A DNA stretch of 64,000 bases from Diphasiastrum complanatum (taxonomy: Eukaryota; Streptophyta; Lycopodiopsida; Lycopodiales; Lycopodiaceae): contig CM055113.1 of the NCBI GenBank assembly GCA_029204225.1, positions 26,835,462 through 26,899,461 of the forward strand, in the 5' to 3' direction. The notes below the pieces were generated by a model. It ran no database searches and was not told the origin of the DNA. It saw only the letters and a program-made list of their open reading frames with translations. Position 1 is the stretch's first letter. Each line of letters begins with the position of its first letter. Below are positions 9,675 through 55,859 of this stretch, in pieces. Position numbers and translations under genes: made by a program.

Positions 9675-11520
9675 GCACCCTACAAAACTACATGCACGAT
9701 TTCTGTTAGTGAGGTGGGGTATTATTGTCAAGCACCTAGGTATCAGGTCCATATGCAGTTCATATTGGGCTAGCCGGCACAAGGTGAGTGTCCAATCATC
9801 ATGGAGACATGATGAGGTATGGGGTTGGTTGTTTGTCAGTGGTCGCTATGCCTTACGATCAAGTTGAGACATGACACACTGGTTAATGGTCCGGGTCGAT
9901 GGATCTTGTGGTCCAAGACCATAGGTAGAGGGCTTATAAGGTGGGATGTCTGAGAGAACCATGACAGTCGATAGCCCTGCTCATGAAGGGAGTGTGAGGA
10001 AGCAATTGTTGTCTGTGTATATCTCATATCTACATCTGGCAAAGCCTGAACTCTCTAAATATATGCGATAAGCTGGAAAGCGTCATCTATCTGAATGGGT
10101 GGAATGACAAACTCTGCAAGAAGCATCTCGTGTGGAATCGAGGGCTTCGCTCGAATCATACGAGCTAACATGGTTTGTAATCGTGAAATGCTGGCCCAGT
10201 GTGATGAAGGAAGATCAGTACACCATGTCTCTGCTGCATACAAGGCTGTGGGGGTGACAATAGTGTCAAAAAGTCCACACTTATTGCGAGCATCTCGGAT
10301 GAACTTCCGGAAGCAGAACTGCTCAAGCTGAACAAGGGAGGAATGCCCCTTCCCAAGTTGGGTGGTGGCAGCCTGTCGCATGCTGAAGGTAGGACCAGAA
10401 AAGAGTATCCCCAAAAAAGTATAAGAGGAAACTACCTGTAGGCCTATCCACCATCTAGGGTGAGCCCTGGCGCTGCATGAAAGCTTGAGAAGTGTTGAAG
10501 ACCATAACCATGGTCTTCGCACTATTCACCCCCAATCCTTATCAGGTACAAAATCCCTGTAAACAATCCAACTGCCTCTATAATCCCTCTCTGGTCGGGG
10601 ATACTAGTACCACATCATCCGCATAGAGGAGAATAACAATCAAAATGGTGCCAAGTTTACAGCCAACTCCGCTTTACTGTGAGATGACTCGCTCTAACTC
10701 ATCAATGTACAATCCAAAAAGAACCGGTGAAAGAGAACATCCCTGTTTCACCCCAATGGTGCTCCAAATGTGATCAAAGATGCCACTGCCATGTCGGAAA
10801 CATCCCAAGACCCTCTCATAAAGAGCCGTCACTGCCAGAAAAATGTCCGTGGAGAAACCAAGGTCATGAAGTCTTTGAATGAGCAGGGAGCGTGGTACAG
10901 AGGGGCGTGAGGAGATAGAGATGGGCCCGTCAGTGGGTATGGTATATAGGTTGGTAGCGTAGTCGGTCCATATGCGGAGGTCATTCGGGAGAGGTGGTGG
11001 AGCACGAGGGATAAACTCACGCCAAAAGGTGCCTGAAGAGGAACTGAAGAGAAGGTCAACAAGACGCTTTCCTTCAGAGTCATGATAGGCACGCTTTTTC
11101 CGGTGGAGTGTGCGATGATAAGAGCATCTGGCGGAGCGGAGGAGGTGAGGATCATGAGTACGGGCATGGGTGACAAGGTGATGAAGAGAGCGACATTCGG
11201 CATCATTCCACAGGGGGTGTAGAGGCCGTAGCGATGAGGACGTGTGTGACTGCCTTTATGGGGCTTAGATGGAAAAGCTAGGGAAGCAGCGGTGAGACGC
11301 TAAGGAAAGCAGCTTGAGTCTCCACTGTACTATCATGTGGAAAGGAATGGAGTAAGGAGGCTAGAAACTCTTGGTAGACTGGCGTATATAGAGAGCTGAA
11401 TGTATACCTGGGTGCACAAGTAAGCAAGGGATGTGAGGATGGTTGGGGAGGTGGGAGGTGGCTGATAGCGAAGGAGAGAAAAGAAGAAATCATAAGCTTA
11501 TGATTGATGGATGACACCAT
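9675..11520 (-). pseudogene. LINE (non-LTR retrotransposon) ORF2 remnant
   Basis: On the minus strand the order is as in plant LINE ORF2. A pre-RT region (about 11210-10950) has WNDAECRSLHHLVTHAR and HRKKRAYHDSEGKRL. The RT core follows: VTALYERVLGCFRHG, then GVKQGCSLSPVLFGLYIDEL (about 10780-10700) and LLYADDVVLV (about 10640-10610, the catalytic YADD). Then comes a thumb-like region YTFLGILFSG and TPTALYAAETWC (10520-10080). The N-terminal part of RT is missing between the pre-RT and VTALYERV blocks. There are several stops and frame changes. The 3' end abuts the chromovirus insertion; no poly-A tail was identified. Confidence 0.8.
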
Positions 11521-34760: not shown

Positions 34761-35280
<520 letters not shown>

Positions 35281-37299
35281 AGAAAATGATAGTCACATGG
35301 ACACGAGATAGTCAAGTTTTATGTTATCATAAATTTGATTAAAATTAATATAGACTAATTCAATGTTACAATCTCTATCGGTCATATGCTAAGACATCTT
35401 CATAGTACACAAATGAACTATTGCTCATAAGAGCATAGTCATGTTGAACAATTAATTAAATCAAACCTTATCTTGTGTCTCTTGGGGTAGTTTCGAATAT
35501 ATTCTATATTTGGACAACATAAGTACACCAAAGTAATTTGACTATGACTCTAATTTTTATATTTGTGAAAATGACATGAATATTAGAGCTTTCACCTTGA
35601 AAACTAAAATCATATGTTGAGATCTCTTTCAAAATTAGAAAATAATTCACCACATACAACAACATGATTATTTATAATTGCAAGTTGTATGAGTCACTTA
35701 CGTGTAATTAGTATAATATGCTACAACACCTATTTTTTTATTTTTTCTAATGAAGACTCTATATATGAATATAAATACATTGCTTGCATGACGAAAATGT
35801 GGTTTGATTATCTAGAAAAATCAGCAAATAAGAGATATTATTATTGTAAGGTTTGTGCCATGGGTCCCTTGATATATAATATAAATTTTGCTTACATTTT
35901 TGGTAAGAGAATCTTTTGCTTTACCATTATTAGTGAGAGTTTAGACTTATTATCACACACCCTTCTTGTGAGATTTTGTCAAATTGTTACAGTATCTAAA
36001 ATGCTACTAAGATACATTGAGAAATTCAAGAATACATAGGAGGATGAGAAAGACTTTGGTTGGGGGCTTGTCCACCAAGGTTTGAGTCTGTGCATGTACA
36101 TGAGGACATATTTGGCTTCGATCAAAAAGATGGGTTTTGTGTCGAGTTGAATTGCACCTACTAGTACTTAGTAAATAAAACTTGCTTATAGTAGGCTTCG
36201 ATCAAATTTATGACATGTCGTACTATAAAATGGCCGGGCCTACATAGCTTTCCCAAAATCATGACATGGTTGGCAACAAATTGTGTATTTGTTTGTAGTC
36301 ATGTGTTATAAAGTTTTAGTTATGAATAAGTTACATTGAGAAACTTTATGTAAAGAAAGTGACAAATTTTTTTTATGAATCATATTTAGTACAACATTAC
36401 TACATCTGAGTTTTGAACTATAGATCCTATTTCAGCCAATTATTCAGATAGATTTTTAAAGCTGTTCAAATGATCAATCATTATTTCACTTTTTGACATT
36501 CGTAGTGAGAAGAATTTCTTTTGTAAAAATGATTTAGCAAAAACATTTCTAACATCATAGAGAGTATTTAAAATATCTCATACTTTTTTGGAAGTATGGG
36601 CTCCACTTATATAATCAAGCAACGAATCTTGAATTTTGAAAATTAGTAAAGCAAAGGCTTTTCCATTCTTTAATTTTTAGTTTAAATGCAAAATCTTATG
36701 AAATGAGAAATGGCGCAAGACCCGTTTTCTTTTCAACAAACTTATGATTTTTTAAAATTCAAGTAAATTTGAATCTTAAATTTAAAAATGAATTAATTAG
36801 TTTGCAAGATGCTACATTCTGCAAATATTTAAAATTTGGACGGAGTATTGCAAAATATTTTTTAAATTTTATACTAAAATGGCTTAAAAAATAAAAACAC
36901 TATTTGTGTGCAATTTGTAATTATGAAAATACTTTCAAAATTTTGCTAATAAAATGGCTTAAAAAATAAAAACATTATTTGTGTGCAATTTATATAAAAT
37001 AAGTGATTGTTAAATTTTTAAAATTTAAAAAGAAAATCAGCAAAAAAGTATTCTAATATAAATTTGAAAACTTATTTGTGATTTGATATTTGTATTTTAA
37101 CAATCAAGTAAACTAAACAAATCTAAAATTTAAACATTTATGTTTAATTTCTAGCAAATATTATTCAACAATAAAATCATTTAACAAAAATATAATTAAA
37201 AAACATAAAAAACAAACATTTTTTACATAAATATAATAATCTTTCAAATAAAAGAGATTTTTTTAAAAATAAAATCATGTAGTCAAAATTATCATAGAG
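35281..37299. other. AT-rich anonymous region
   Basis: No recognised gene. A 116-codon plus frame (35689-36039) is rich in Ile, Phe and Tyr and matches no known family. A tandem duplication lies at 36875-36991. The right end is probably the 3' flank of the minus-strand methyltransferase-like gene ending at 37300. Confidence 0.4.
36875..36991. repeat. Tandem duplication, period 75 bp
   Basis: 'taaaatggcttaaaaaataa' and the following 22 bases occur at 36875-36916 and 36950-36991 with one mismatch. Confidence 0.85.
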
Positions 37300-37534
37300 T
37301 CAAAAATTCTCAATCAGATCATTTGGATCTAGAGAAGCAGTCCTTCCAATCCTTGTATCTATTGGAGATGTTGTCGCATCCTGAATAACAATTTTTACAA
37401 TTACATTATATCTTTGTTCAACCACCTCGGCCAGATCTCCTATGACCACCAACAATACCATTGGCAAGTGGTTGAGGCCCTTAACAAATGGAGTAATACC
37501 ATCTTCACAGGGGCCCAACTTACTCACCTCTTGA

Positions 37535-37539
37535 AACTC
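37535..37539. repeat. Target-site duplication, left (AACTC)
   Basis: Matches 44890-44894 exactly; flanks the gag-only LTR element. Confidence 0.95.
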
Positions 37540-38691
37540 TGTTGACAGATCCCCTGCTCCAGAGGACTTGTTGTCTACTTTTCTGCTTCTTGTTTACAGA
37601 ACCGTTTCTGCCTGTTATCAGGCTTCATGGCAGTCGTTAGATGGTTTCTTGATTGATTTTACGATGCCAACCCAGGTAGACGGAAACAAAGTTTCGTTGT
37701 AGTATGTTTCTTTTGTCCTGCTTGTCAGAGGACAACTCAGGGATTTCGCTCTTGAACGCACTTACATTCTACATGGATGCAAGCCAAGATTGCTCATTCA
37801 CAGATCAACATACAAACCAATGAATGTTCTACAGATTCTACAGCTACCTACACTTAGAAAGGACTGAAATCAGAGCCTACACTACATTAACACTGAGCTA
37901 CCTTGTATAACTTGACAAAAACAAGAAACAAAGCTAATCTACAACATGTTAGAAGTCCAAGAATCAAGAAACCAACCAGTCTATTGATTCTTGGACATCC
38001 CAAGAACATTGAGAACTGGATTGTACAGAGATATGCAAGAATCACACCACAGATCCAGCCTATTTAGTTTACTTGAATGTTGGCTCCTACATTAATCCAC
38101 AAGAAAACAAGAAATCTAATCCACAACTAGGAAAACAAGAAAACTAATCCACTCTAAATCCACAACCACACACAATATGAATGGAAGGGCATGATCATAG
38201 GGGCATCACTCAAGAAAACCATCATGATCAAGGAGCTTAGTGTAGTATCAAACTCATGAAAAATCTTCTTATTAAGCATGGAGTAGATACAATGCAAAAA
38301 GCTCCTCTTCACAAAGAGGGAGTCTCTTAAATAAGCAAGAGAGCTCCTTAGGTGGCATGTTAGTGGAATTTCCACATTTCACAAATTACAAGTGGAATAT
38401 TGCTCTCCACTAGAGGTCACCATCAAAAGGTGGCTCACTCTACTTTCTTTAAGAGGGGTCTACTTGCATTTATTACATTTTTCTAGAAATACTAGCTCCT
38501 ACATGGTCATTCCATCTTTCGAGATTCACCATGAGGCTTACACAGTTCTTGCATGTCTTTCCTAGCTAGTATTTCTCGGCTCTCACTCTTTATTAGTCTC
38601 GTCTTCTCAGAGACCTCCTCGGTCTAAGGTGAGAGGTGCTCTTGAGTTGCTCTGTCCAAGTATCTTGGGGATTCGTCAGAATCAGCCAACA
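37540..38691 (-). repeat. 3' LTR of the gag-only element
   Basis: 1152 bp; nearly identical by eye to 43726-44889. Confidence 0.95.
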
Positions 38692-38706
38692 TTATCCTAC
38701 CCCTAA
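38692..38706 (-). other. Polypurine tract of the gag-only element
   Basis: Reads TTTAGGGGTAGGATAA on the minus strand, directly before the 3' LTR. It sets the orientation. Confidence 0.75.
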
Positions 38707-39199
38707 AGTGTTGCAGGACCCACTGCAACTCATATTGGACGATGTCGCTCTGCTTTGCAGTTTATGTCCCTTTTTTTTCCACTAGAGAGTTCTTGAACCA
38801 CTTGTGATATATTTGGGGTGTTTATAATGATAATTGTTACGTCCATGTCTTGCATGAAGGATTCGGAATAGTCCTTGACATGGATATTTGGTACTCTAGT
38901 GTACAAGATTATTAGTTACCCCACATCATTCTAGACTAGGCCAATAATGTAATTAATAAACTTGCGAGAAAAAGCGTAAATCCTAGTTCACTTACATAAA
39001 ACCAAGTGCTTATTGTCGCCAGTCTTTATCACAAAAACTGTCTTTCACGAATTGCCACGATTGGATTAGAATGTCTTATTGCTATAGGTGGTTGACATTC
39101 TCAAATTTGGAAAGCTCCTAGCAACTTCATAACTTGCATGCTCGAGTGCTTTCCTCATGTCTATTTGTTTAGTCACTTATATCTGCCATTGACGGTTTC
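38707..39199 (-). other. 3' interior of the gag-only element, noncoding
   Basis: No convincing frame on either strand. Confidence 0.4.
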
Positions 39200-40350
39200 A
39201 TATTTGGTTTCTTGGCAGATTCCATCTTTGGTTTCTTCTGGGAGGTCTGTATCCTCCATTTGCCTCTGGGTATTTCCGTGGTTCTTCTCTCAGTTGAAGT
39301 TCCAGTCTTGTCGATGCTCTTTTCTGATAGGTAGCACAAATCTTGGTTATCAGTCTCAAGGGGATGGACTCATCATAAAAAATTGGGTGGTAGAAACAGT
39401 TTTGGCTGGACGGTTTGGTAATGGTGAGGAAACATGATGAAGGCTTGGTGACAAGGTGAAGAAACTGATAGTTCTACAATTGTAGCCTTGGACCCTTGCA
39501 ATGTCGAGCTTCGACCACCACTTGCTGGGGCTTGCTTTATTTGCAGGTTCACGGATGTCTTCATCTTTCATTTTCTACAGCTCTTTCTTTTGATCCATTA
39601 CTTTTGGATCTCTTTGGACTTCATAAGAGGGGATTCAACTATCATCACTTCAGAGAGTTTTTTTTTTTATCAAGATCGATCTGACTCATCTGTTGCTTAA
39701 GTTTTGTCCTTTCCTCCTCAGCTTCCTAGATCTTTCTTTTTATTTCTTCTAGCTGCTTCGCCTGCTTTTGTAAGTCTTTTTCGGCTGAACAACCAATATA
39801 GGTGGTAGTTGGTCTCCACAAGACACTTGCAATGATATATTGGCTGCTTCGATAAGACTATCAAAAACTGGAAATTTCTAAGAAGAACAGTAAACTGATG
39901 GTAAACAAACAGATGGAAGGGAGGGTGGTGGTGACAACGGTAGATGGTGTGGACAATAGACATGAGAATGGGCGCAGAAGTATGGCAAGAGGTTGATTGA
40001 AGAAGGAGACTGATTTTCCAATGCTTGTGTTTCTCTTTCTGAAGGATCTTCATCGTGACTGGGGTACTTCTTCTGATCAAGTCGCTTTGGATTGCTCATC
40101 TGTCTTCTTAGCCTTGTCATTGTCAACTTTGGGTTTGTGACCTTGGATGTCGATCTTGCTGGTGTTGTTGCTGGCAGCGTAATTGCTCCAGTGGATCCAA
40201 GCAAATCCACTCTCTCCCCCCCCAAAAAAAAATCAATTGGTGGAAATGTTGTTGTTGGTGATTGTTCATGCTCAGGATTGGATCGGCATGTAGAACACGT
40301 AGTTGAAACTCGTTGAACATGTGGCTGGACTAAAGATTGAACAAATTTTA
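39200..40350 (-). pseudogene. Coiled-coil coding-like remnant inside the gag-only element
   Basis: On the minus strand, in shifting frames, protein-like sequence appears: DSLIEAANISLQVSCGDQLP, then a heptad-rich stretch (LQKQAKQLEEIKRKI, EAEEERTKLKQQM) near 39775-39690, then APASGGRSSTLQGSKATIVE. It has the same orientation as gag. It matches no retroelement pol domain I know and could be a captured host gene piece or an extra element ORF. Several stops and frameshifts are present. Confidence 0.35.
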
Positions 40351-41202
40351 ACTAAATTTGTTTCGATCTTGATGTAGTTGACTCAAAGAATAATATGGCA
40401 ATGAGGTGCAAGAATCAACTCTAACTTGTCATGGATTTCTCATAGTTTTCAAAAATTTGAAACTACTGTACATGGTAATCTGAAGATGGATAGATGACTG
40501 AAAATGTGTTCTGGAGATGCTCTACATAAGACTCTCGTGCAGTAGCTATTCTTCATGCAAAAATCAATCACATAAAATAGGTGAAGAGAAACAAAGAAAT
40601 AAACAAACATTACAGAGAGTGAGAACTGTATAGCACTTGTTGAACAAAACTGGCATTCATCAACATTGATAATGTACCTTGACAATTGCAATATTCCTCT
40701 TTTTTTGTCGAGTAATGTGACTTACTCTGACATGCCCTTGTCAAAACAAGGTAGGGTGGATGACACTAAATCTATCATCATGGATAACAGATGTTGTAAG
40801 ATACAACATGAGATGCAGGGATTATTGAGGTATTACGTCCTGAGGACCTCTATGAACAAGAGAATCAGAACCAAATCTCTATCTGGATTTTCGAATCCGA
40901 GAAATATTATGTATTGGCACATTGGAAATCTTATCAGCATATGGAAAGACAAATAGATTTGAGGTTGTAGAAGGGGAAAAAAATTGTCAATTCCCTATGG
41001 AGGTTGCTCTTGGTTGGACATTGTAGCAGATGACGGAATATCAGTTTAACTTTCTTTCGACAAGGACTCATTTCATATTGTCTGTTTGCATTATGGTACT
41101 GGCGTATTGGACGGTGATGTAGGAGTTTACAAGAAAATTCTCGATCAAGCAGCAGGTTTAACTGCTAGTTGCTATGGTGCTCATGTTGTTGTCGTGAAGA
41201 TC
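40351..41202 (-). other. Unrecognised interior of the gag-only element
   Basis: Downstream of gag on the minus strand where protease and RT would be expected; no such motif found. A 96-codon plus frame at 40666-40956 is unrecognised and probably fortuitous. Confidence 0.4.
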
Positions 41203-42666
41203 CTATTGTGATTCATAACTGATGTGACGGGCAGGTAGGATCTTAGCGTGTTGCTTTGGACAGTCTTTGAAATTGTGTTTTCTTATACAATCGGGACACT
41301 TAGGATGGTACTTGGTCTTGACTGGACAATCAACCATGAAATGGCCAGTTTCACCACAGATGAAGCATCTGGTGTGCAGTGGCCCTTGCATTGCATAACC
41401 CTCTTGTATGGCTAGTGGGTCTGGACTTTCTGATGGATAGTCTAGATAAGACAAGGCATTTCTAGATTGGGATGGGTGTTCTTCATATTGTTGAACTATA
41501 TGTGCTTGGATAGGTCGATATGAAGGACAAGCATCAATAGGATGCGTAGTCCGATAGTGTGGGCACCATATTGTTTTTTGTCTATAAGGTACCTGTGTAG
41601 GGTTTGACTGACCAGGCATACTGCCTTGGATAGACTTCAGGGTATCTTGAAACTCATTGGTGAGTTTCTCCATCTGAAGTTGGTGTTTCTTATTAAGCAA
41701 CGCCAGCTGTGATTTCCAAAGCTAATCTCGGGTGTCCTCGATCGGCTTCGACTCATGGACAGGAGCATGTGGTGCTTGCCTTTCCCTAGATTCGTCAATA
41801 TCTGATCCTTCGTCTTCTTCCTTGATAGCATCAGACATAGCTAACTTTAGGCTCATATATTCATCATTGGATTTAAGCTCGCATCTAATCCATCTTGGAA
41901 GGCCGACTAAGAACCAGATGATGAGCATATGTTCAAAGGGCTGTTCTTGTACTTGACTTTTGAGACGTTTGAAACGCTCAATATAGTCTCATACTCGTTC
42001 GTCTTTTGTCATTTTGATAGTCCTTAGATTGACAAAAGGGTTTTCTATCAAGCGAAATGGCTTGAAGCATTTGATAAAGGCCTCCTTCAAGAGTGACCAG
42101 TCACATTTATCTTCACGATCAAGGTTAAAAAACCATTCTCGTGCTCAATCGATCATGGTCATCGAGAAGAGTTGAATCATGGTGTCGGGTGATGTCTCGC
42201 CATATACATCACATGCATTCTCAAAGATTTGCAAAAATCTTTGAGGGTACGCACTACCGTCAAACTTTGGTAGATCTAGCCTGGGTGTACGTCTTTCAAG
42301 ATGAGCTCCGTGGGTAGTAGAGACTCCATTAAGGTTGGTTTTGGCCTGTGAGGGGTCAGCACCATAAAAACGGGGTCGTGCACATGAAGACTCAGCTCTA
42401 TCAGGTTCTTGTCCATTGAACGGGTTTGTGGATGGCTCTTGGAGTTTGGCTCTCATTCGATAGAACCTATGACGTCTTATTTGTTCAGCTATTGATATCA
42501 TATGGATAATCTTCTGGGATTTCAGGATCTGTATGCTGGTGGTGGTCCATTGGGTACTAGGGTATGAGTTTCTAGTATCGATGGTTTTTTGGAGTTTTTG
42601 ATTTTTTAGGATTTTTTGTGTTTTTGGATATTTCTGAGTTTTTAAGGAAGTCAAGGGAAAACTCAA
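41203..42666 (-). pseudogene. Gypsy-type gag of the gag-only element
   Basis: The minus-strand frame has a polar N-terminal part and then LDLPKFDGSAYPQRFLQIFE, the opening of the retrotransposon gag capsid domain. After in-frame stops it continues with DWSLLKEAFIKCFKPFRL, YIERFKRLKSQVQEQPFEH and MLIIWFLVGLPRWIRCEL. A Glu/Asp-rich linker and QLQMEKLTNEFQDTLKSIQG follow, then CCHC knuckles CFICGETGHFMVDC and the partial CPDCIRKHNFKDC. Interruptions include TGA at about 42145 (consistent with CGA to TGA), TGA near 41984 (TGG to TGA) and TAG near 41722. The start chosen (42666) is the first in the open frame. A related gag fragment lies at 53225-54064 on the plus strand. Confidence 0.85.
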
Positions 42667-42819
42667 TATGAAAAGAGCTTTCTATTGGTATGGGTGTTGT
42701 GTTTTGAAAAAAATTTGGTATTCATGCCCTTTGGTTTTTTTTTTTTTTTTTTTTCTAGTCTCGAAGGTGTTGTGAAGATGGTGGTTCAGTTGAAATGGCA
42801 ACTAGAGGTGTTGATCAAA

Positions 42820-43510
42820 AGTTATGGTCCGGTCGAGATTGGGTGTTAATTACTTCGGTCGAGATTTGATCTGCTTGCTCTGGTCGAGATTTGATCTGAT
42901 TGCTTCGGTTGAGATCTGATTGAATCCCTTTGGTCGAGATTTGATCGCTGCTCCAGTGAGATTGGACCTGATAGCTTCGGTTGAGATCTGATCGAATCCC
43001 TCTGGTCGCGATTGCTCTGGTCGAGATCACTTCGGCTTCGATCGAGATCTGAACGGCCACTTTGGTCGAGATTCCAGCGAGCAGTTCGGCTCCGGTCGAG
43101 ATCTGAACGGCCACTTCGGTCAAGATTCCAGCGAGCAGTTCGGCTCCGGTCGAGATCTGAGCGGCCACTTCGGTCGAGATCTCAGCAAGCACTTCGGCTG
43201 AGATTCCAGCATGAGCTTCGGTTGAGATTTTACTGAGAGCTCCGGTTGAGATGTGAGCATGAGCTCCGGTTGAGATTTTACTGAGAGCTCCGGTTGAGAT
43301 GTGAGCATGAGCTCCGGTTGAGATTTTAATTTTTTTTTTTGTTTTTTTTTTTGATGCACCTGCGTTGCGTCGGTCAAGATGGTGAGAGAGAGGCTTGGCT
43401 GAGATGGAAGAGAAGGTGTTCGGTTGAGACGTGAGAGAAGGTGCTCGGCTGAGATGGAAGAGAAGGTGTTCGATTGAGACATGAGAGAGGGTGCTCGGTT
43501 GAGATGGTGA
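42820..43510 (-). repeat. CGGTYGAGAT minisatellite in the leader of the gag-only element
   Basis: The decamer CGGT(C/T)GAGAT and close variants recur about 27 times at spacings of about 20-31 bp between the 5' LTR and gag, interrupted by a T-rich tract near 43328-43352. Short higher-order units such as 'gagctccggttgagatNtNa' repeat several times in a row. Frames across it give periodic peptides but stay non-homologous. Confidence 0.85.
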
Positions 43511-43725
43511 CAGAGGGAGGTGGAGACGATGGGTAAGCTATGGGTAGAGGATGATGTAGAAGGAGATGAGGATGTATGTAGGGCGTGGGGATGGTGTGTG
43601 CAGGTCGTTCTGAGCTATGAACGGATCTGGAGACATTTCAGATTGCGTGCATGGGTCCGATCAAAGATAGTCTTGCAACATATGCCATTTCAGAATGTGA
43701 GTGATGCAAGCGGCAAATGGTCAAA

Positions 43726-44889
43726 TGTTGACATATCCCCTGCTCCAGAGGACCTATTGTTTACTTTTCTACTTCTTGTTTACAGAACCGTTTCTGCCTG
43801 TTATCAGGCTTCATGGCAGTCGTTAGATGGTTTCTTGATTGATTTTATGATGCCAACCCAGGCAGAAGGAAACAAAGTTTTGTTGTAGTATGTTTCTTTT
43901 GTCCTGCCTGTCAGAGGACAACTCAGGGACGTCGTTCTTGAACGCACTTACATTCTACATGGATGCAAGCCAAGAACGCTAATTCACAGATCAACATACA
44001 AACTAATGAACGTTCTACAGATTCTACAGCTACCTACACTTAAAACGGACTGAAATCAGAGCCTACACTACATTAACACTGAGCTACCTTACATAACTTG
44101 ACAAAAACAAGAAACAAAGCTAATCTACAACATGTTAGAAGTCCAAGAATCAAGAAACCAACCAGTCTATTGATTCTTGGACATCCCAAGAACATCAAGA
44201 ACTGGATTGTACAGAGATATGCAAGAATCACACCACAGATCCAGCCTATTTAGTTTACTTGAGTGTTGGCTCCTACATTAATCCACAAGAAAACAAGAAA
44301 TCTAATCCACAACTAGGAAAACAAGAAAACTAATCCACTCTAAATCCACAACCACACACAATATGAATGGAAGGGCATGATCATAGGGGCATCACTCAAG
44401 AAAACCATCATGATCAAGGAGCTTAGTGTAGTATCAAACTCATGGAAAATCTTCTTATTAAGCATGGAGTAGATACAATGCAAAAAGCTCCTCTTCACAA
44501 AGAGGGAGTCTTTTAAATAAGCAAGAGAGCTCCTTAGGTGGCATGCTAGTGGAATTTCCACATTTCACAAATTACAAGTGGAATATTGCTCTCCACTAGA
44601 GGTCACATCAAAAGGTGGCTCACTCTACTTTCTTTAAGAGGAGTCTACTTGCATTTATTACATTTTCCTAGAAATACTAGTTCCTACATGGTCATTCCAT
44701 CTTTCGGGATTCACCATGAGGCTTACACACTTCTTGCATGTCTTTCCTAGCTAGTATTTCTCGGCTCTCATACTCGGCTCTCAGTCTTCATTAGTCTCGT
44801 CTTCTCGGAAACCTCCTCGGTCTAAGGTGAGAGGTGCTCTTGAGTTGCTCTGTCCGAGTATCTTGGGGATTCGTCAGAATCAGCCAACA
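43726..44889 (-). repeat. 5' LTR of the gag-only element
   Basis: 1164 bp, homologous to the left LTR; a 12-bp local duplication of 'tactcggctctc' near 44765-44780 accounts for the length difference. The inner flank (minus strand TTTGACCATTTGCCGCTTG) does not match the tRNA-Met site used elsewhere. Confidence 0.95.
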
Positions 44890-44894
44890 AACTC
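44890..44894. repeat. Target-site duplication, right (AACTC)
   Basis: Partner of 37535-37539; lies inside a codon run of the methyltransferase-like gene. Confidence 0.95.
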
Positions 44895-45870
44895 ATCAGG
44901 CAAAACTAAAATGCCAGCTAACCTCATTTTAATAGAACTTTCTAAACTCTCAACTAATTCTAAAGCCGCAACATGTTTGCCCTTTTGGACAACACTTGCA
45001 CTAGTTGTGCGACTACCACTAAATAAATCTAAAATCCAATCCGTAGGATGAGAAAACATTTCAATTAATTTATTTACAAGTTGTTGTGGTTTTTGACATG
45101 GGCAAGCCACAGAACCAGTCTTTGGAGTTTTTAGGTTTTTTGTCATTGTAGAAAAATTAAAATGATTTGCATAACTTGTGCTCCCTATAGTGTTGTAGTG
45201 CAACATGGATCTCTTTTCATTAGTAGAGAAGTAACTGATGGTGATATATTCGATCTCATTATAGAGACGTGCACCACCAAAATTGTGCACATTTGGCTTG
45301 TACCTACAAACATTGAAAGCAAATAGTCAGACAAACAAATAACAAAAATGTTCAAATTAAAATCACTTGTAAATGTATACATATTTGGTTACAATCAATA
45401 CTTACCAAATGACATTTTCTATCCATGTATTGCAGACTTCCAATAGGGCCTTGTGGACACCTACTTGTTGCCAACTGGAGTGAAATATTACTATCCTCCA
45501 AAGCGGAACTGTAGTGATCTTCAAAAAGACAACAACAACGTCTTTGACTTATGTGTATTTAAATGGGCGATTATCATTCAGGGACTCTTCAAGCTTGAAC
45601 CCGTATGGAATGCCAGTGATGCAAAGGATGTAAGGTCTTCTTTTTACAAACTTGGAGATCTCTCTGGCATCATTTTGTTGTATTGTCTAAAAACAAGCTA
45701 GAAAGGAGCTCTCCATTGAGTATTCTTATGTACAAACATTCAGACAAGTTAGTGCAATTATTTTTGTTGGGTTGATAGTTGAGGAAGCCAAGCTCCTTGT
45801 TTGGGATCACAACATCGACCAAGATTATAGATTGAAGATGGTTGTTAGACAATGAGTCAGATTTTTTCAC

Positions 45871-46103
45871 AAGGAGTAGGCTTCACAAAGAAGGAGATAA
45901 AACATACATACAACTAAAGTGCCTTTGTGCACAGGAGACGAGACTATCATTTGATGAAAATAATCCAGCCTCTTCTCTTACAAAATATGATAATTCTTTT
46001 TAGCTGGCCTTTTGAAAAGGACATATAGTTTCATGTTCAACTTTTTTATATTTTATTTTTTTAGATTAAAATGAAATTCTTTAACACAATTTTTTTTATT
46101 TTA
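45871..46103. other. Flank between methyltransferase-like pseudogene and copia element
   Basis: AT-rich, no frame of note. It may be an intron or upstream region of the minus-strand pseudogene. Confidence 0.3.
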
Positions 46104-46108
46104 GATTT
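46104..46108. repeat. Target-site duplication, left (GATTT)
   Basis: Identical to 52267-52271; flanks the intact copia element. Confidence 0.95.
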
Positions 46109-46790
46109 TGTTAAAAATTCACAATTCTAGCTTGACTAGTTTTGGTCATATGACTTGTAAATAGTTAAATGGTCATGATGTGGCTTGTCACACGTGCCAA
46201 ATAGCATAGGATTCCATTCATAAGGATGTTCTCAAGTAGACCTAAGTGTTAGAACCTTTGGAATGAGTCCAAATTATGCTTAGATACAAGGGAGAAAAAA
46301 TAGGAGCTATTTTTGGTAATTTTTGCATTGTTGAGGGATCTCCAAGATTCCAACCCTAACTTGGTAGGGATGAAAGATCCACCAAAATTAGAATTAGGGA
46401 TAGGTTTAGGGCTACTCATACCTGCCCAAAACCGTGATGGATCTTGTATATATAGGTGATGATATCTCACCAAAATCAATCAAGCAATTTCATGATTTTT
46501 CTCTCATAATGGTGCAATTGCTCTCTATGTTCATAATTGTTTGAGTACTTGTGATTACTAATGATTATAGGATTGAATGTAGGTCTGGTGTACAGTACTC
46601 AGACTGTGGGAGGCCGTACTTTCACACGTGTTAAGCCTTCTTCAAGGATTTGGGCCATTTAGTGAGGTTCAAGCATAGATTTTTGATGGATTTTGATGGT
46701 TCAACTTGTGCTAATCTTATGAAATCATAATCTATTGTTTCCCTCATCATTTCAAGTGTTTTAGGATCCTTATTTGCTGTAATTTTTACA
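46109..46790 (+). repeat. 5' LTR of intact copia element
   Basis: Begins TGTTAAAAATTC and ends AATTTTTACA. A TATATATA box at 46447-46454 marks the probable promoter, so the transcript start is expected near 46480. Also carries a CACACGTG-type box near 46623. Confidence 0.97.
46447..46454 (+). promoter_or_regulatory. TATA box in the copia 5' LTR
   Basis: TATATATA within the LTR, repeated at 51923-51930 in the 3' LTR. Position in the middle of the LTR fits the U3/R border. Confidence 0.7.
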
Positions 46791-46802
46791 TGGTATCAGA
46801 GC
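46791..46802 (+). other. Primer-binding site of intact copia element
   Basis: TGGTATCAGAGC directly after the LTR; complementary to initiator tRNA-Met. Confidence 0.95.
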
Positions 46803-47601
46803 CTAAAGGCTGAAATGAGCTAAATCCTTGGTTTTCATTCAATTTGATCACAATTTTTGATCTAAATCTTGTGTAGATTGGATCTTAGCATCTAGTATTG
46901 ATTCTAGAACTCAAAGTGAGTCAAATACATTGGAGATTGGTGTTGTGTGACTTCATTTGCAGGTGTTTAGGTGTCTAAAACCAGAGGCAAAGTTGAATTC
47001 AATTCACATTACCAAGATAGCAAGTTTTGCTTGCTCCAAGCATTGATTTCTAAGCGAGTTTTGGAGGTGATTTCATAGAGAAGGCTTTCTAGCATTCAAG
47101 GAGAGGGAAGATCAGAGTTTTGGGGACTCTTCAAGGCTGTTCTAAGGTGTAGTAGGCACCTCCTAAAGTGATTTAGGTTCAGTCCAACCATTGCTTGACT
47201 TATGCACCAAATTAGATCAATTTTTCATCAATTTTGATCATTTTTTGCTTGTGATTGGATAGTAGATTGTGTTGCATCCTCATTAAGTTCCATTTAGATC
47301 TTTTACAAGTGATTTTGGAAGTATATTAGGTTGCTGAAATTCACTCTTGATCAGATCATTTGGAATCTTTAATGTTCTTTATAGAAAGAGAGGCAATTCT
47401 ACTAGTATTGTCTACTTCAATCAAGCAAGTGCATTGTTTCTAGTATTCTATGATTTGATTTTGTTAGAGATCATTCTTAGATCTTTATAGGAAGTCTATT
47501 ACTGATATTTTCAGGTCCCTAAGAAGTGGGATAAGGTAGACCTTCAATCAAATCAATAGAAGTAACCTTCATTTGTGTCAAGTCCTTGATTAGGAGACTA
47601 G
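46803..47601 (+). other. Copia 5' leader
   Basis: About 800 bp of noncoding leader between primer-binding site and the gag-pol ATG. No long frame. Packaging and dimerisation signals would be expected here but cannot be identified by eye. Confidence 0.6.
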
Positions 47602-50600
47602 ATGACATCTATAAATGCATATCTTTTGGATACTAATGAAAGGCTCAACAAAACTAACTATTCCATATGGAAAGTTAGAATGGAATCTATCATGATCATG
47701 CAAGATCTGATGGAAATTGTAAATGGTAAGGAGGGTGAACCTATTCATCCTCAAGAAAAAGCCAAATACATCAAGAGGTGCAATGTTGCACTACATTGCA
47801 TAAAAATGAATGTTGCAAATGAACTCTTAAGAGAGGTAGGAGATTGCACTTCAGCTCAAGATGCTTGGGAGACTTTGCAAAAGGTCTATGAATCCAAGAA
47901 CCAAACTAGAATGTTAGCTTTGAAGAATCAAATCTATAGAAGCTATCAAAAGAAAGGAGAGAGTGCACATACTTTTGTCCTAAGAGTAAAGGAATTGAAC
48001 AAAGAGCTAGCCTTTATAGGTGACCCTATCAAGGATGAAGAGCTTGTTCAACTCATATTGAATGGACTAAGCTTTGAATTTGACAATTTGGTTCAGGGAT
48101 ATGCAATTATGGGTAAGCTACCCATACTTGAAGAACTCCAAGGCACACTCATGGCCGAGGAATCAAGAAGGAGCCAAATGCAAGAGAGGATGGATAGGCT
48201 TTCCATCCAAGGTGGAGATGACCAAGCTCTCTTCACCAAAGGCAAAGGCAAGTCCAAAGGCAAAGGATCAACATTCAAGAAGTCTACAAAGCTTGAGGAT
48301 CAAGAAGGACCCTCAAAGGCATCTCCATCAACCACCAAAGTCAAGAAGGACAAATCAAAGGTGAAGTGCTACTATTGTAGCAAGATGGGGCATTATGCCT
48401 CGGAATGCTTCAAGAGGAAGCAAGATCAAAGCCAAGCCAACATGAGCAAAGAGGAGGAGGAGGAGAGTTCACATGAGGACTCTCTCATGATGTCCATATT
48501 TTCCTCAACAAGCTTCAAAGGAGAAGATCCTTGGTGGATTGACTCGGGTGCTAGTTCACACATGACTAGTAAAAGGGAGTTTTTCTCTTCTCTCTTATCT
48601 TATGATGGACCTATAAAGTCTATCTATACAGCAAATGATGAAGCTTGTAAGATTGAAGGAGTTGGTAGAATTCCCCTTTGCTTAGGATCTTCCAAAAAGA
48701 TCAACATAGAAGGTGTTTTGTACATTCCTACAATAACAAAGAATCTACTAAGTGTTGGCCAAATGGTAGACAATGGTTTCAATGTTGACTTTGCTTCAAA
48801 TGAATGTTTCATCAAGAAGAAGGGTAAGATAGTGGCTAAGGGCACTAGACTTGGCAAACTTTATAAGTTGGATGCATTTGTGGATACTAATGTTGTCATG
48901 TTGGCCGAGAAGAGCAAGATATCTACTTTTACTTTATGGCACAAAAGACTTGGACATGTCAACTCGGGTTCCATGGAGGCTATGATCAAGGAGGAGTATG
49001 CTTTAGGCCTACTAAGGTCTATTGGGAAGGAAGACAAGGTTTGTGAAGTTTGTGCCTTATCCAAGGCACATAAGAAGGTGTTTCCTAACTCCATCACAAA
49101 GTCATCTCATCCTCTTGAACTCATACACTCGGATGTGCACATTGCTAGCACCAAATCTAATGGAGGTTCATCCATGTTTTTAACCTTCATTGATGACTAC
49201 TCAAGATATTGTTGGGTGTTCTTACTTTCCTTCAAGTCTCAAGTATTTGATACTTTTGTAAAGTTCAAGTTGTTTGTGGAAAAGCATCATAATCATAGCA
49301 TCAAGATTCTTAGAAGTGACAATGGTGGACAATTCATCTCCAATGAGTTCAAGGCCTTTTGTGAGGAGGAAGGGATCAAGAAAGAGACTTCTTGTCCTTA
49401 CACTCCTCAAGAAAATGGAGTTGCTGAAAGAAGGAATAGAACATTATGTGAATGTTCTAAGGCTTTAAGATTAGATGCTTGTTTGCCCAAATCCTTTTGG
49501 GGTGAGTCTCTTGTATGTGCAAACTACTTGATGAATAGGGTGTCTTGCAAAGCAATTGAAGGCAAAACTCCTTATGAGATGTTGTATGGAAAGAAACCCA
49601 ATCTTAATCACTTGAAAGTTTTTGGGTGTATATGTTATGTGCATGTGCCATTGGAAACAAGAACCAAGGAGGATCCATCTTCCACAAGAGGGATCATGCT
49701 TGGATATGCAAGCTCAAGAAAGGGCTACAAAGTCTATCTCCCATCCTTGAACAAATTTGTTGTTTCAAGGGATGTCATCTTTGATGAACATCATATGCAT
49801 ATGCTTGAAGAAGGCTCAAGTGCTCCAACAATCAAGAAGAAGATGGCCGAGGATCAAGATCTTGGTTTTGAGGAGGAGCTCATGGAGGAGCAAGCACCAA
49901 ACCCACCTATCACACCAAGGAGATCTTCAAGGGCAAAAGTGGAGCCATCAAGGCTCACATATCAAGGCAAAGGACAGCAAGTTGAGGGTATCTCATCCAC
50001 TTCTTATGCTTTATCTAGTTTCAAAGAACCATCTAATGTTGAAGATGCATTGCACTCCAAAGAATGGTATAAAGCTATGTTGGATGAGTATGATGCCTTG
50101 ATTGAGAATGAAACTTGGTTGCTTGTTGAGAGACCTCAAAGGAATGTAATAGGATGCAAGTGGGTCTTCAAGCTTAAGTTGAATGCAAATGGGAGTGTTA
50201 ACAAACATAAAGCAAGATTAGTTGCAAAAGGCTATGCTCAAGAGAGAGGGATAGACTATGAGGAAAATTTTGCACCCGTGGCCAAGATGGTCACAATAAG
50301 ACTAATCATTGCACTTGCATCACATTTTGGATGGATTCTATGTCAAATGGATGTCTCTAATGCTTTCTTGAATGGTTTTTTGGAAGAGGATATCTATATG
50401 GAGCAGCCACAAGGGTTCATCAAGCATGGAATGGAGAACAAAGTATGCCATCTCCAAAGAAGCATCTATGGCTTGAAGCAAGCCTCAAGATCTTGGAATT
50501 CAAGACTACATTGCTATCTTATTTCACTTTCTTTTGTTCAAAGTGAATATGATCCCACTCTTTACATTAAGTTTGATGATGTTGGTATTGTACTTTTACT

Positions 50601-51570
50601 CATTTATGTAGATGACATCATCATTAGTGGAAATAGTGTTGATGGTATTGAAAAAATCAAGATAGATCTATCCTTAGAGTTCAAGATGGTAGATCTAGGG
50701 TGTCTTCACTTCATCTTAGGCATAGAAGTACTTAGAGGGTCTGATTTTATCTTTATAAGTCAAGTAAACTATGCTCAAAGTCTTTTGAAGAAGTTTAAGA
50801 TGGAAGTATGCAAAAGTGTTGACACACCAATGGAGCAAGATGTAAAAGTGCCAAATGAAGATGATGAAAGATCCTTCATGGACATCACTTTGTTTAGGCA
50901 ACTTATAGGTTCCTTAATGTGGATCACTATAACTAGACCAGATCTTAGCTTTAGTGTATGTAGGTTGAGCCAATCCATGCAAAAGCCATTGAATATCCAT
51001 TGGAAAAAGGCTAAGAGGATTCTAAGATACATCTCGGGTACATTGGATTTTGGGATTCTATATAGAGGAGATGTGATTAACCTTCATGCATTTAGTGATT
51101 CAGATTTTGCAGGGGACAAGAGGGATAGGAAATCAACAAGTGCCTATTCAACTTTCATAGGAGAAGGTGTGGTTTCATGGCTTTCAAAAAAGCAAGAAAC
51201 TATATCTCTATCTTCAACCGAGGCCGAGTACAAAGCTTTGACAACCACTACAAAGGAGGTACTTTGGATCAAGAGATTATTGGTGGAACTAAAGATCATG
51301 GATTCAGAGGAGGCACCAATCATCTACAATGACAATATATCAGCCCAACACCTTGCATCTAACCCAATCTTCCATGCAAGATCTAAGCACATTGAGATAT
51401 GCCATCACTTTGTGAGAGAAATGGTGCAAGCCAAGGAGATTGCTTTGGAGCATGTTCCAAGCAATGAATGTGTAGCTGATCTACTTACTAAACCACTTCA
51501 AAGGACACCTTTTATGAAGTTCAGATCATCACTTGGAGTGATTAGTAAAGCAATGATTGAACCAAGCTAG
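47602..51570 (+). CDS. Intact copia Gag-Pol polyprotein, 1322 residues
   Basis: Gag: about residues 15-200 (LNKTNYSIWKVRM, LILNGLSFEFDNLVQGY), Lys-rich linker, CCHC knuckle CYYCSKMGHYASEC from 256. Protease: DSGASSHM from 314. Integrase: zinc-finger region near 447 (WHKRLGHVN), catalytic Asp 511 (IHSDV), Asp 573 (LRSDNGGQF) and Glu 609 (GVAERRN), the last two at DD35E spacing. RT: GCKWVFKLK, QMDVSNAFLNG and YVDD at 1002-1005. RNase H: FSDSDFAGDK near 1166 and SSTEAEYKAL near 1206. No stop or frameshift; all catalytic residues checked are present. The single fused frame is normal for plant copia elements. The ATG is the first in the frame. Confidence 0.97.
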   Translation: MTSINAYLLDTNERLNKTNYSIWKVRMESIMIMQDLMEIVNGKEGEPIHPQEKAKYIKRCNVALHCIKMNVANELLREVGDCTSAQDAWETLQKVYESKNQTRMLALKNQIYRSYQKKGESAHTFVLRVKELNKELAFIGDPIKDEELVQLILNGLSFEFDNLVQGYAIMGKLPILEELQGTLMAEESRRSQMQERMDRLSIQGGDDQALFTKGKGKSKGKGSTFKKSTKLEDQEGPSKASPSTTKVKKDKSKVKCYYCSKMGHYASECFKRKQDQSQANMSKEEEEESSHEDSLMMSIFSSTSFKGEDPWWIDSGASSHMTSKREFFSSLLSYDGPIKSIYTANDEACKIEGVGRIPLCLGSSKKINIEGVLYIPTITKNLLSVGQMVDNGFNVDFASNECFIKKKGKIVAKGTRLGKLYKLDAFVDTNVVMLAEKSKISTFTLWHKRLGHVNSGSMEAMIKEEYALGLLRSIGKEDKVCEVCALSKAHKKVFPNSITKSSHPLELIHSDVHIASTKSNGGSSMFLTFIDDYSRYCWVFLLSFKSQVFDTFVKFKLFVEKHHNHSIKILRSDNGGQFISNEFKAFCEEEGIKKETSCPYTPQENGVAERRNRTLCECSKALRLDACLPKSFWGESLVCANYLMNRVSCKAIEGKTPYEMLYGKKPNLNHLKVFGCICYVHVPLETRTKEDPSSTRGIMLGYASSRKGYKVYLPSLNKFVVSRDVIFDEHHMHMLEEGSSAPTIKKKMAEDQDLGFEEELMEEQAPNPPITPRRSSRAKVEPSRLTYQGKGQQVEGISSTSYALSSFKEPSNVEDALHSKEWYKAMLDEYDALIENETWLLVERPQRNVIGCKWVFKLKLNANGSVNKHKARLVAKGYAQERGIDYEENFAPVAKMVTIRLIIALASHFGWILCQMDVSNAFLNGFLEEDIYMEQPQGFIKHGMENKVCHLQRSIYGLKQASRSWNSRLHCYLISLSFVQSEYDPTLYIKFDDVGIVLLLIYVDDIIISGNSVDGIEKIKIDLSLEFKMVDLGCLHFILGIEVLRGSDFIFISQVNYAQSLLKKFKMEVCKSVDTPMEQDVKVPNEDDERSFMDITLFRQLIGSLMWITITRPDLSFSVCRLSQSMQKPLNIHWKKAKRILRYISGTLDFGILYRGDVINLHAFSDSDFAGDKRDRKSTSAYSTFIGEGVVSWLSKKQETISLSSTEAEYKALTTTTKEVLWIKRLLVELKIMDSEEAPIIYNDNISAQHLASNPIFHARSKHIEICHHFVREMVQAKEIALEHVPSNECVADLLTKPLQRTPFMKFRSSLGVISKAMIEPS

Positions 51571-51572
51571 AT

Positions 51573-51584
51573 AGTGAGGAGGAG
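51573..51584 (+). other. Polypurine tract of intact copia element
   Basis: AGTGAGGAGGAG, ending at the 3' LTR. Confidence 0.9.
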
Positions 51585-52266
51585 TGTTAAAAATTCACAA
51601 TTCTAGCTTGACTAGTTTTGGTCATATGACTTGTAAATAGTTAAATGGTCATGATGTGGCTTGTCACACGTGCCAAATAGCATAGGATTCCATTCATAAG
51701 GATGTTCTCAAGTAGACCTAAGTGTTAGAACCTTTGGAATGAGTCCAAATTATGCTTAGATACAAGGGAGAAAAAATAGGAGCTATTTTTGGTAATTTTT
51801 GCATTGTTGAGGGATCTCCAAGATTCCAACCCTAACTTGGTAGGGATGAAAGATCCACCAAAATTAGCATTAGGGATAGGTTTAGGGCTACTCATACCTG
51901 CCCAAAACCGTGATGGATCTTGTATATATAGGTGATGATATCTCACCAAAATCAATCAAGCAATTTCATGATTTTTCTCTCATAATGGTGCAATTGCTCT
52001 CTATGTTCATAATTGTTTGAGTACTTGTGATTACTAATGATTATAGGATTGAATGTAGGTCTGGTGTACAGTACTCAGACTGTGGGAGGCCGTACTTTCA
52101 CACGTGTGAAGCCTTCTTCAAGGATTTGGGCCATTTAGTGAGGTTCAAGCATAGATTTTTGATGGATTTTGATGGTTCAACTTGTGCTAATCTTATGAAA
52201 TCATAATCTATTGTTTCCCTCATCATTTCAAGTGTTTTAGCATCCTTATTTGCTGTAATTTTTACA
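51585..52266 (+). repeat. 3' LTR of intact copia element
   Basis: 682 bp. Differs from the 5' LTR at attagcatt (5' gaatt), cgtgtgaag (5' cgtgttaag) and ttagcatcc (5' ttaggatcc). Contains the 14-bp palindrome TTCACACGTGTGAA at 52097-52110. Confidence 0.97.
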
Positions 52267-52271
52267 GATTT
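52267..52271. repeat. Target-site duplication, right (GATTT)
   Basis: Partner of 46104-46108. Confidence 0.95.
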
Positions 52272-53224
52272 GGGACCTTGTAGATAAAACATTTGATAAA
52301 TGGGATGTTTGAAATAAAAGGACAACTTTCAAAAGGGTCGTCCTCAACAAAAAAGAAAGAAACACAAACAACTCTTGGCCCCATCCCCCAAGATATGGGG
52401 AGATTGGAGAGGAAAAACATGCAAGGCATTCCTTCCAAGGATGTTGTTGCGAGTGTCCTGTCAAGAGTTGATGACGGACAAGAATTTCAAAGGTAATTTT
52501 AATTTTTAATTCTTTTGCAAAAAGCTTGAATCTAATCATTTATTTTATTCGGACACAAGCTTTTCATGAAGGTGCAAGAGGAAATAGTAAAGAGTCTCAT
52601 CCTCAACTACAAGGATTGGAGATGCCAACATCTTTACCCAAACACTTCCTCTCTGTTGCAACAAGCTGGGTGCTGTAATGGGAAAGGAAACGGCTTTCAA
52701 CACTCAAATCCAATTCCATTCCCCATTCTTGCGTAGATTAGTATAGCAATAGGCTGCAATCTGTATCACTGAGCCTTTTTTTGTCTCCTCTCCTTTATCT
52801 GCTATAGTTGCACCCAAGCTTTGTGTTCTATCGGTGGTTTTTTTTATTCTCGGCCTTTCCAGATTTAAGTCGCTATGCAGAGAGATTTGAAGAAGACGAT
52901 GAAGAGGTAGAAGTCGCTGGAGAAGTGGCTGGTTGCAAGATCCATGATAGAGCTTCTGATGCTTTTCTGGTAAACCATTATTTGGTATACATCCTACACG
53001 ACCGATCTAACCTATTATCACATCACTACGTCTATTTACTCACCAACCATTGGCAAAATAATCTTGCCACGTCTAGTTGGAATAAGCCATAGGCATATCT
53101 AGTAGGGTACCAGCCTTAGACATGACCTAGATGGAAGCCATAGACTAGGGAGAGACCTTTGCCCTCATCCATCCACCCAAACCTGGTCTTGTGATAATCT
53201 GTTCAGATCAACATGGCATGACCA
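52272..53224. other. Host DNA right of the copia element, weak exon-like frames
   Basis: Two plus-strand stretches look exon-like but unproven. 52293-52492 (GIPSKDVVASVLSRVDDGQE) ends at a CAAAG|GTAATT donor but has an in-frame TAG at 52281. 52863-52969 lies between TTTCCAG and CTG|GTAAAC and encodes RYAERFEEDDEEVEVAGEVA. No family is recognised. The opposite strand near 52863-52969 is also open (Ser-rich), so strand is uncertain. Confidence 0.25.
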
Positions 53225-55060: not shown

Positions 55061-55782
<722 letters not shown>

Positions 55783-55859
55783 CGTTCATATTTCTGTCTA
55801 TCTGTATCTGTGTATATTTTGGTGCATCTAGCAATTGCATATATTCAAAGTAATATCTT

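Follow-up and report, generated by a model that had tools for sequence, protein, structure and literature searches.

How a DNA amino-methyltransferase of bacterial type comes to lie in the genome of a lycophyte, and whether it is a gene of the plant or of something that travels within it, is the question raised by a 64,000-nucleotide stretch of Diphasiastrum complanatum (assembly GCA_029204225.1, contig CM055113.1, positions 26,835,462 to 26,899,461 of the forward strand), referred to here as the window. Methylases of the PF01555 family are mainly bacterial, and whether land plants make N6-methyladenine (6mA) or N4-methylcytosine (4mC), and by which enzymes, is disputed. An earlier note, drawn from the letters of the window alone, took the locus for a decaying copy of a host methylase gene, cut in frame by a long terminal repeat (LTR) element. 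The gene is real and is indeed decaying, but it belongs to a transposon family dispersed in many copies rather than being a lone host gene, and the remnant in the window is very probably what is left of a large DNA transposon, now dead, of a kind that carries a methylase gene and a DUF7869 gene.

The methylase gene occupies the minus strand, where IPYGF, CQKPQQLVNKLIEMF and DLFSGSRTT follow one another in a piece spanning 45693–44890, and both the order of motif IV, target region and motif I and the fold are those of the beta class of PF01555. An exon with motif IV (TGIPYGF) and an in-frame TAA (45406–45693), whose 5' edge is the inversion breakpoint discussed below, is followed by a GT-AG intron of exactly 102 nt in phase 2 (GTAAGT...TAG, 45405–45304), the removal of which preserves the frame, and by an exon with motif I (FSGSR, 44890–45303). 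This last exon matches PF01555 by itself (44892–45302, E = 1.1e-11, 45.5 bits against a family cut-off of 26.7), and the three other window pieces submitted had no Pfam match at E <= 1. The three motifs in methylase order and the clean intron, both reported in the earlier note, are thereby borne out, as is, for one exon, the profile match for which it had proposed to search. Among the 11 N-terminal relatives from the first protein search (P0003–P0013), eight terminate in W at the position of the intron, as expected if the same splice donor gets read as W-stop.

Downstream, the exon is interrupted by an LTR retroelement (37540–44889, minus strand; LTRs at 43726–44889 and 37540–38691) between GAGTT duplications at 44890–44894 and 37535–37539, and the frame resumes in a C-terminal tail (37300–37534, minus strand). 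When the flanks of the element are joined by script, the frame stays open up to a stop codon at 37300–37302, so that the in-frame split described earlier stands. The tail truly belongs to the methylase gene, because two relatives read through the empty site: the copy L035, from the same genome, lacks the insert and is colinear across the site, and protein P0001, which matches the tail (E = 2e-26) and is 75% identical over the matched part, is colinear across the insertion site as well; P0001 comes from another data set, possibly of the same species, in which its contig is 1000 bp long. Past the stop codon lies a 3' non-coding part of the element (36691–37299, minus strand), recognized by homology to L035 (72.8% over 36691–37356).

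Three protein searches, the second of which gave the best 120 of 239 matches, place the gene in a large plant family that includes Ceratopteris richardii KP509_15G027200 and P0121, a Ginkgo-type record (the name 'Gb_37443' is read here as denoting Ginkgo); both records are annotated as genes, and most further matches are exon fragments on short contigs. P0121 (670 residues, PF01555 at 65.7 bits) reveals a larger protein, of which the methylase makes up the C-terminal half. A first scan of prokaryote contigs (query P0017) returned no relative, and a second returned one weak Chloroflexi match (L007) besides six contigs (L001–L006) in a 'Trichormus' bin that carry an intron-bearing gene. These six are presumably DNA of the fern Azolla binned with its cyanobacterial symbiont, a reading supported by their introns and by 51–75% segment identity to the Ceratopteris protein. 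The public cyanobacterial bin CAKZGI01 ('Trichormus sp.') holds, as an observation in its own right, intron-bearing genes of plant type that are apparently fern nuclear DNA. In the fern layout, an exon of 560–580 residues that holds a highly conserved domain precedes a short exon, which is followed by the exon of motif IV, by one reaching to FSGTG and by a last one; the frames listed show no break in three of the six contigs (L002, L005 and L006) and are broken in L001, L003 and L004. The conserved N-terminal domain is tentatively ParB-like: its sole profile matches are weak ones to DUF6551 (E 0.019 to 0.086), a profile comparison of the domain gave no match at an effective sequence number of 1.3 in the alignment, and its structure model has a mean predicted local distance difference test score of 39. 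Given the intron and the relatives in Ceratopteris and the Ginkgo-type record, the window gene is a real, eukaryotic amino-methyltransferase gene.

The relatives that the earlier note had supposed to exist elsewhere in the genome are numerous, and some of them retain open frames. Against the species' own 1.74-Gb genome, P0121 finds at least 86 matching stretches in at least 58 chromosomal places plus small contigs, which is a lower bound because 66 of 4326 candidates were scored and the window copy itself is absent; the 58 places are what is left of the 86 rows when rows of one place are merged and small contigs omitted. Multi-kilobase stretches, mostly with 83–93% identity, are shared by 14 of the 20 loci fetched (L012 is contained in L018, and L030/L031 and L026/L027 are near-identical duplicates), and GGTCATCATGTT forms the end of nine of these 14, with at most one mismatch, and of L020, with two; beyond it the flanks differ. 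Two copies have been traced fully, one on C17 (9084 bp) and one on C4 (8794 bp), giving an element of about 9 kb, and their left end, AACACRATGACATTTG, is an imperfect inversion of the right end. Small fetches at the predicted ends of five more copies yielded both ends of a copy on C9, the left end alone of one and the right end alone of three. All three copies with both ends, out of seven examined, have a perfect 4-bp target duplication, AACT (C17), TTCC (C4) and TTAA (C9), and their short terminal inverted repeats pair at 10 of 12 bases in C17 and C9 and nine of 12 in C4 (C4 and C9 counted by eye). The family is thus mobile, with terminal repeats and 4-bp duplications, on the basis of three complete relatives, not of the window copy. 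A second lineage of the methylase gene is present in the same genome (L010, L011, L013, L015 and L022, 81–93% identical to each other), and in L022 the gene has an additional intron at FSGTG, as in ferns.

Upstream of the methylase, on the opposite strand, the traced copies hold a second gene region, two of whose frames match DUF7869 (PF25273; 2.3e-28 and 6.2e-16). The elements are thus composed of two divergent gene regions, one for a DUF7869 protein and one for a multi-exon protein in which the conserved N-terminal domain is joined to an amino-methyltransferase of the beta class at the C-terminus. A homologous frame stands head to head with the methylase gene in the fern contig L003 (DUF7869, 4.2e-51). 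Within 12 kb of the 58 methylase places, DUF7869 is found at five, upstream and divergent in all five, when an even spread of sites predicts 0.10 pairs in any orientation; this count uses at least 128 DUF7869 matches (128 of at least 150 rows, 22 on small contigs being dropped). Upstream divergent frames of the DUF7869 gene region occur in eight of the 20 fetched loci: L020, L021 and L022 have DUF7869 frames proper, and L024, L032, L033, L034 and L035 have other frames of the region, assigned by position and strand, with DUF7869 frames contained in the adjoining stretches L037 (for L033) and L036 (for L034). Two of six hand-picked DUF7869 loci bear a methylase in the 8 kb inspected. The genome has at least 150 scored DUF7869 matches (2954 candidates), many of them far from any detected methylase gene, and related elements without the methylase probably exist. 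No mention of DUF7869 was found in the literature searched, a search with preprints and most subscription journals outside its scope. Taken together, the dispersed copies, the terminal inverted repeats, the 4-bp duplications and the divergent DUF7869 gene argue that a DNA transposon carries the methylase along as one of its genes, and the methylase's standing as an intrinsic gene of the element is strongly supported.

The phylogeny points in the same direction. A FastTree analysis (51 rows, 121 columns, every aligned row retained) unites all 23 plant-type sequences in a single clade (support 0.84), apart from 28 bacterial-type ones, 'bacterial' being our label for unnamed metagenome proteins. 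The input comprised 28 of 31 bacterial-type rows (180–460 residues) and 13 of 30 tblastn rows (the window, eight own-genome and four fern), and the rotifer and bryophyte enzymes were not part of it. The window sequence shares a group (support 1.0) with seven own-genome copies and P0001, so that it can be assigned to the mobile family as one member rather than as a separate host orthologue. Of 20 distinct own-genome loci (21 rows), 18 retain the motif D-[IV]-P-Y, the Asp being missing in L048 and L027, and all six fern contigs retain it too; the best matches of the predicted fold in the PDB are N6-adenine enzymes.

The copy in the window has lost key residues. Its motif IV reads TGIPYGF, in which the catalytic Asp has become Gly, and its motif I reads FSGSR, with Arg in place of the Gly seen in FSGSG of its closest relatives (L035, L017 and P0001), leaving neither the catalytic D-x-P-Y nor the FxGxG motif intact; to these are added an in-frame TAA at 45549–45551 and a frameshift near 52306. 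Judged by such lesions, the copy is dead and could not encode a working enzyme. It is also rearranged. Whereas residues 355–587 of P0121 map to the minus strand at 45683–44889, residues 147–217 map to the plus strand from 45694 (E = 1e-11) and residues 263–334 to the plus strand at 52268–52469 (E = 1.5e-5), and fern proteins used as queries give the same inverted arrangement. DNA comparison with own-genome copies sets the breakpoint at base 45693, at which a minus-side block stops (L035, 83.3% over 809 columns) and a plus-side block starts (L017, 76.1% over 335 columns). The inverted part, all of it on the plus strand, comprises the protein's N-terminal region, tentatively ParB-like and with stops (45693–46031), the linker part corresponding to residues 263–334 (52271–52480, with the frameshift), and a probable remnant of the next short exon (52539–52581), resting on a weak protein match and a short DNA match. 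The middle of the gene likely underwent a simple inversion; neither the remaining N-terminal part, sought on the minus strand past 52581, nor the far inversion breakpoint was found. The LTR element, presented earlier as the lesion of the gene, is present yet accompanied by other lesions; the TAA and the N-terminal part on the plus strand (45693–46031 and 52271–52581) had been overlooked.

Two insertions add to this damage. The LTRs of the element at 37540–44889 are identical at 1113 of 1151 aligned bases (96.7%). A gag-like zinc-knuckle frame is located at 41203–41721, and by eye there is no long frame for reverse transcriptase or integrase, so the element may depend on another one. A Copia element (46109–52266, plus strand) sits within the inverted part between GATTT duplications at 46104–46108 and 52267–52271; its two 682-bp LTRs differ by three mismatches, and its open reading frame (47602–51570) is open over 1322 codons. 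By LTR divergence, Copia can be ranked as the most recent insertion.

On these grounds a scheme can be proposed in which the DUF7869 protein, probably a transposase, would cut at the terminal repeats, the methylase would put 6mA (or 4mC) on the DNA of the element, and the N-terminal domain would assist in binding that DNA, so that the methylated element might be distinguished from host chromatin or escape silencing. The window copy has lost catalytic residues and has acquired, in either order, the inversion with its breakpoint at 45693 and the LTR element, Copia being the most recent arrival by LTR divergence. We infer the transposase role, the 6mA specificity and the self-marking. More broadly, and more tentatively, there may be an undescribed superfamily of DNA transposons in land plants, of an age that would let ferns, this genome and possibly Ginkgo have it in common, with its own bacterial-type amino-methyltransferase, marking its own DNA with 6mA or 4mC during or after transposition and constituting, for non-flowering plants, a mobile source of methylation other than 5-methylcytosine; this candidate falls somewhat short of an even chance.

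Several observations weigh against the transposon and its proposed mode of action. The window's own terminal repeats were sought and nothing convincing was found, no DUF7869 remnant was found in the window, and L035, the nearest to the window among the fetched loci, also lacks the clear end. Just one end was recovered for four of the seven copies examined. Four of the six hand-picked DUF7869 loci have no methylase in the 8 kb inspected, five of the six fern contigs have no DUF7869 frame, and DUF7869, a domain of unknown function, has no meaningful match in the PDB. As for the enzyme, seven of the 17 own-genome loci that are of the window type have a damaged motif I. Among the top viral fold matches, several carry the label cytosine-N4-specific, which speaks against 6mA, and the N-terminal domain can be called ParB-like no more than tentatively.

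An alternative, in our view unlikely, is that the methylases are a host family of bacterial type, functional in ferns and gymnosperms, from which one or more members were taken up by a DUF7869 transposon and multiplied as passengers. The fern copies are diverse (about 71–77% nucleotide identity) and yet L002, L005 and L006 are unbroken in the frames listed, the N-terminal domain is strongly conserved, DUF7869 appears in just one of the six contigs, and the records from Ceratopteris and of Ginkgo type carry gene annotations, all of which would suit a working host gene. In contrast, fern L003 and two lineages of the plant's own genome, the L022-type and the L034-type, all have a homologous DUF7869 gene head to head with the methylase, a pairing that speaks for the two genes having long formed one element. 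It is far less probable that the methylase arrived with the insertion of a giant virus that became endogenous. Pandoravirus methylases do rank among the better hits when the predicted fold is compared with a viral library, but the two best are phage proteins, and the defined ends, the 4-bp duplications and the copies of about 9 kb scattered by the dozen are what a transposon would leave. In the two traced copies, the frames of at least 120 residues amount to two gene regions (by eye; no search for viral hallmarks was run), and three scans of viral contigs turned up no relatives. Of phage records, 93 match the methylase part only, none of them above 60% identity. Bacterial contamination of the assembly, for which the mainly bacterial occurrence of PF01555 might speak, is rejected as practically inconceivable, given the spliceosomal-type intron that the fern relatives have as well, the plant-type LTR elements inserted in the gene and the copies on many large contigs. 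A retroelement domain as the identity of the gene is likewise rejected, as none was present among the four window pieces in the Pfam search.

Among known systems, the bacterial and phage amino-methyltransferases CcrM, M.BceJIV and MboIIA (PF01555) belong to the same beta class as the transposon-borne family, which differs from them in bearing introns, in standing behind a conserved N-terminal domain, in having D-I-P-Y rather than DPPY, and in being carried by a plant transposon. Mobile genes for DNA methyltransferases are described from dinoflagellate and charophyte retrotransposons and termed host-derived (PMC5890265), although those enzymes are C5-cytosine methyltransferases and the vehicle is a retrotransposon, not a DNA transposon. 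Fungal DNA transposons encoding TET/JBP dioxygenases, like the present family, couple a DNA transposon with an enzyme that modifies DNA bases, but the enzyme oxidizes methyl groups rather than adding them, and the superfamilies are others and the hosts fungi; mobile elements with SET histone methylases are also known (PMC12730594). The N4CMT of bdelloid rotifers, described as a host gene, has an SPPY motif and a chromodomain (PMC8885841; PDB 8s9m) and differs in all three respects from the window family with its D-[IV]-P-Y. In Marchantia, MpDN4MT1a/b are described as sperm-specific 4mC enzymes (PMC8566409) and, compared by description alone, resemble the family as bacterial-type amino-methyltransferases in a land plant; no row named Marchantia is among the protein matches listed, most rows being unnamed and one search giving the best 120 of 239. 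The kinship with rotifer and liverwort N4-cytosine enzymes suggested by the earlier note is unsupported beyond the shared fold, with D-I-P-Y rather than SPPY and N6-adenine enzymes as best PDB folds, and direct kinship with N4CMT or MpDN4MT1 is likewise unsupported, the tree having covered the plant-type and bacterial-type sequences given above. A DNA transposon with an amino-methyltransferase was not found described in the same literature search. The principle of a mobile base-modifying enzyme is thus known, and what appears to be new is the class of enzyme, the group of hosts and the element itself.

A transposon family with a bacterial-type amino-methyltransferase is a concrete, testable candidate source of plant 6mA and 4mC, and it serves as a warning that what is annotated as a PF01555 gene in ferns or Ginkgo may belong to a transposon. 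If the self-marking scheme is true, the arms race between elements and host silencing widens from C5-methylases and TET enzymes to amino-methylation.

Elsewhere in the window, the minus strand at 10055–11255 has, by eye, frames like those of reverse transcriptase of the long interspersed nuclear element type. Long GA/CT microsatellites lie at 35001–35105 and about 55500–55850, and the kind at 35001–35105 recurs near other copies of the methylase family.

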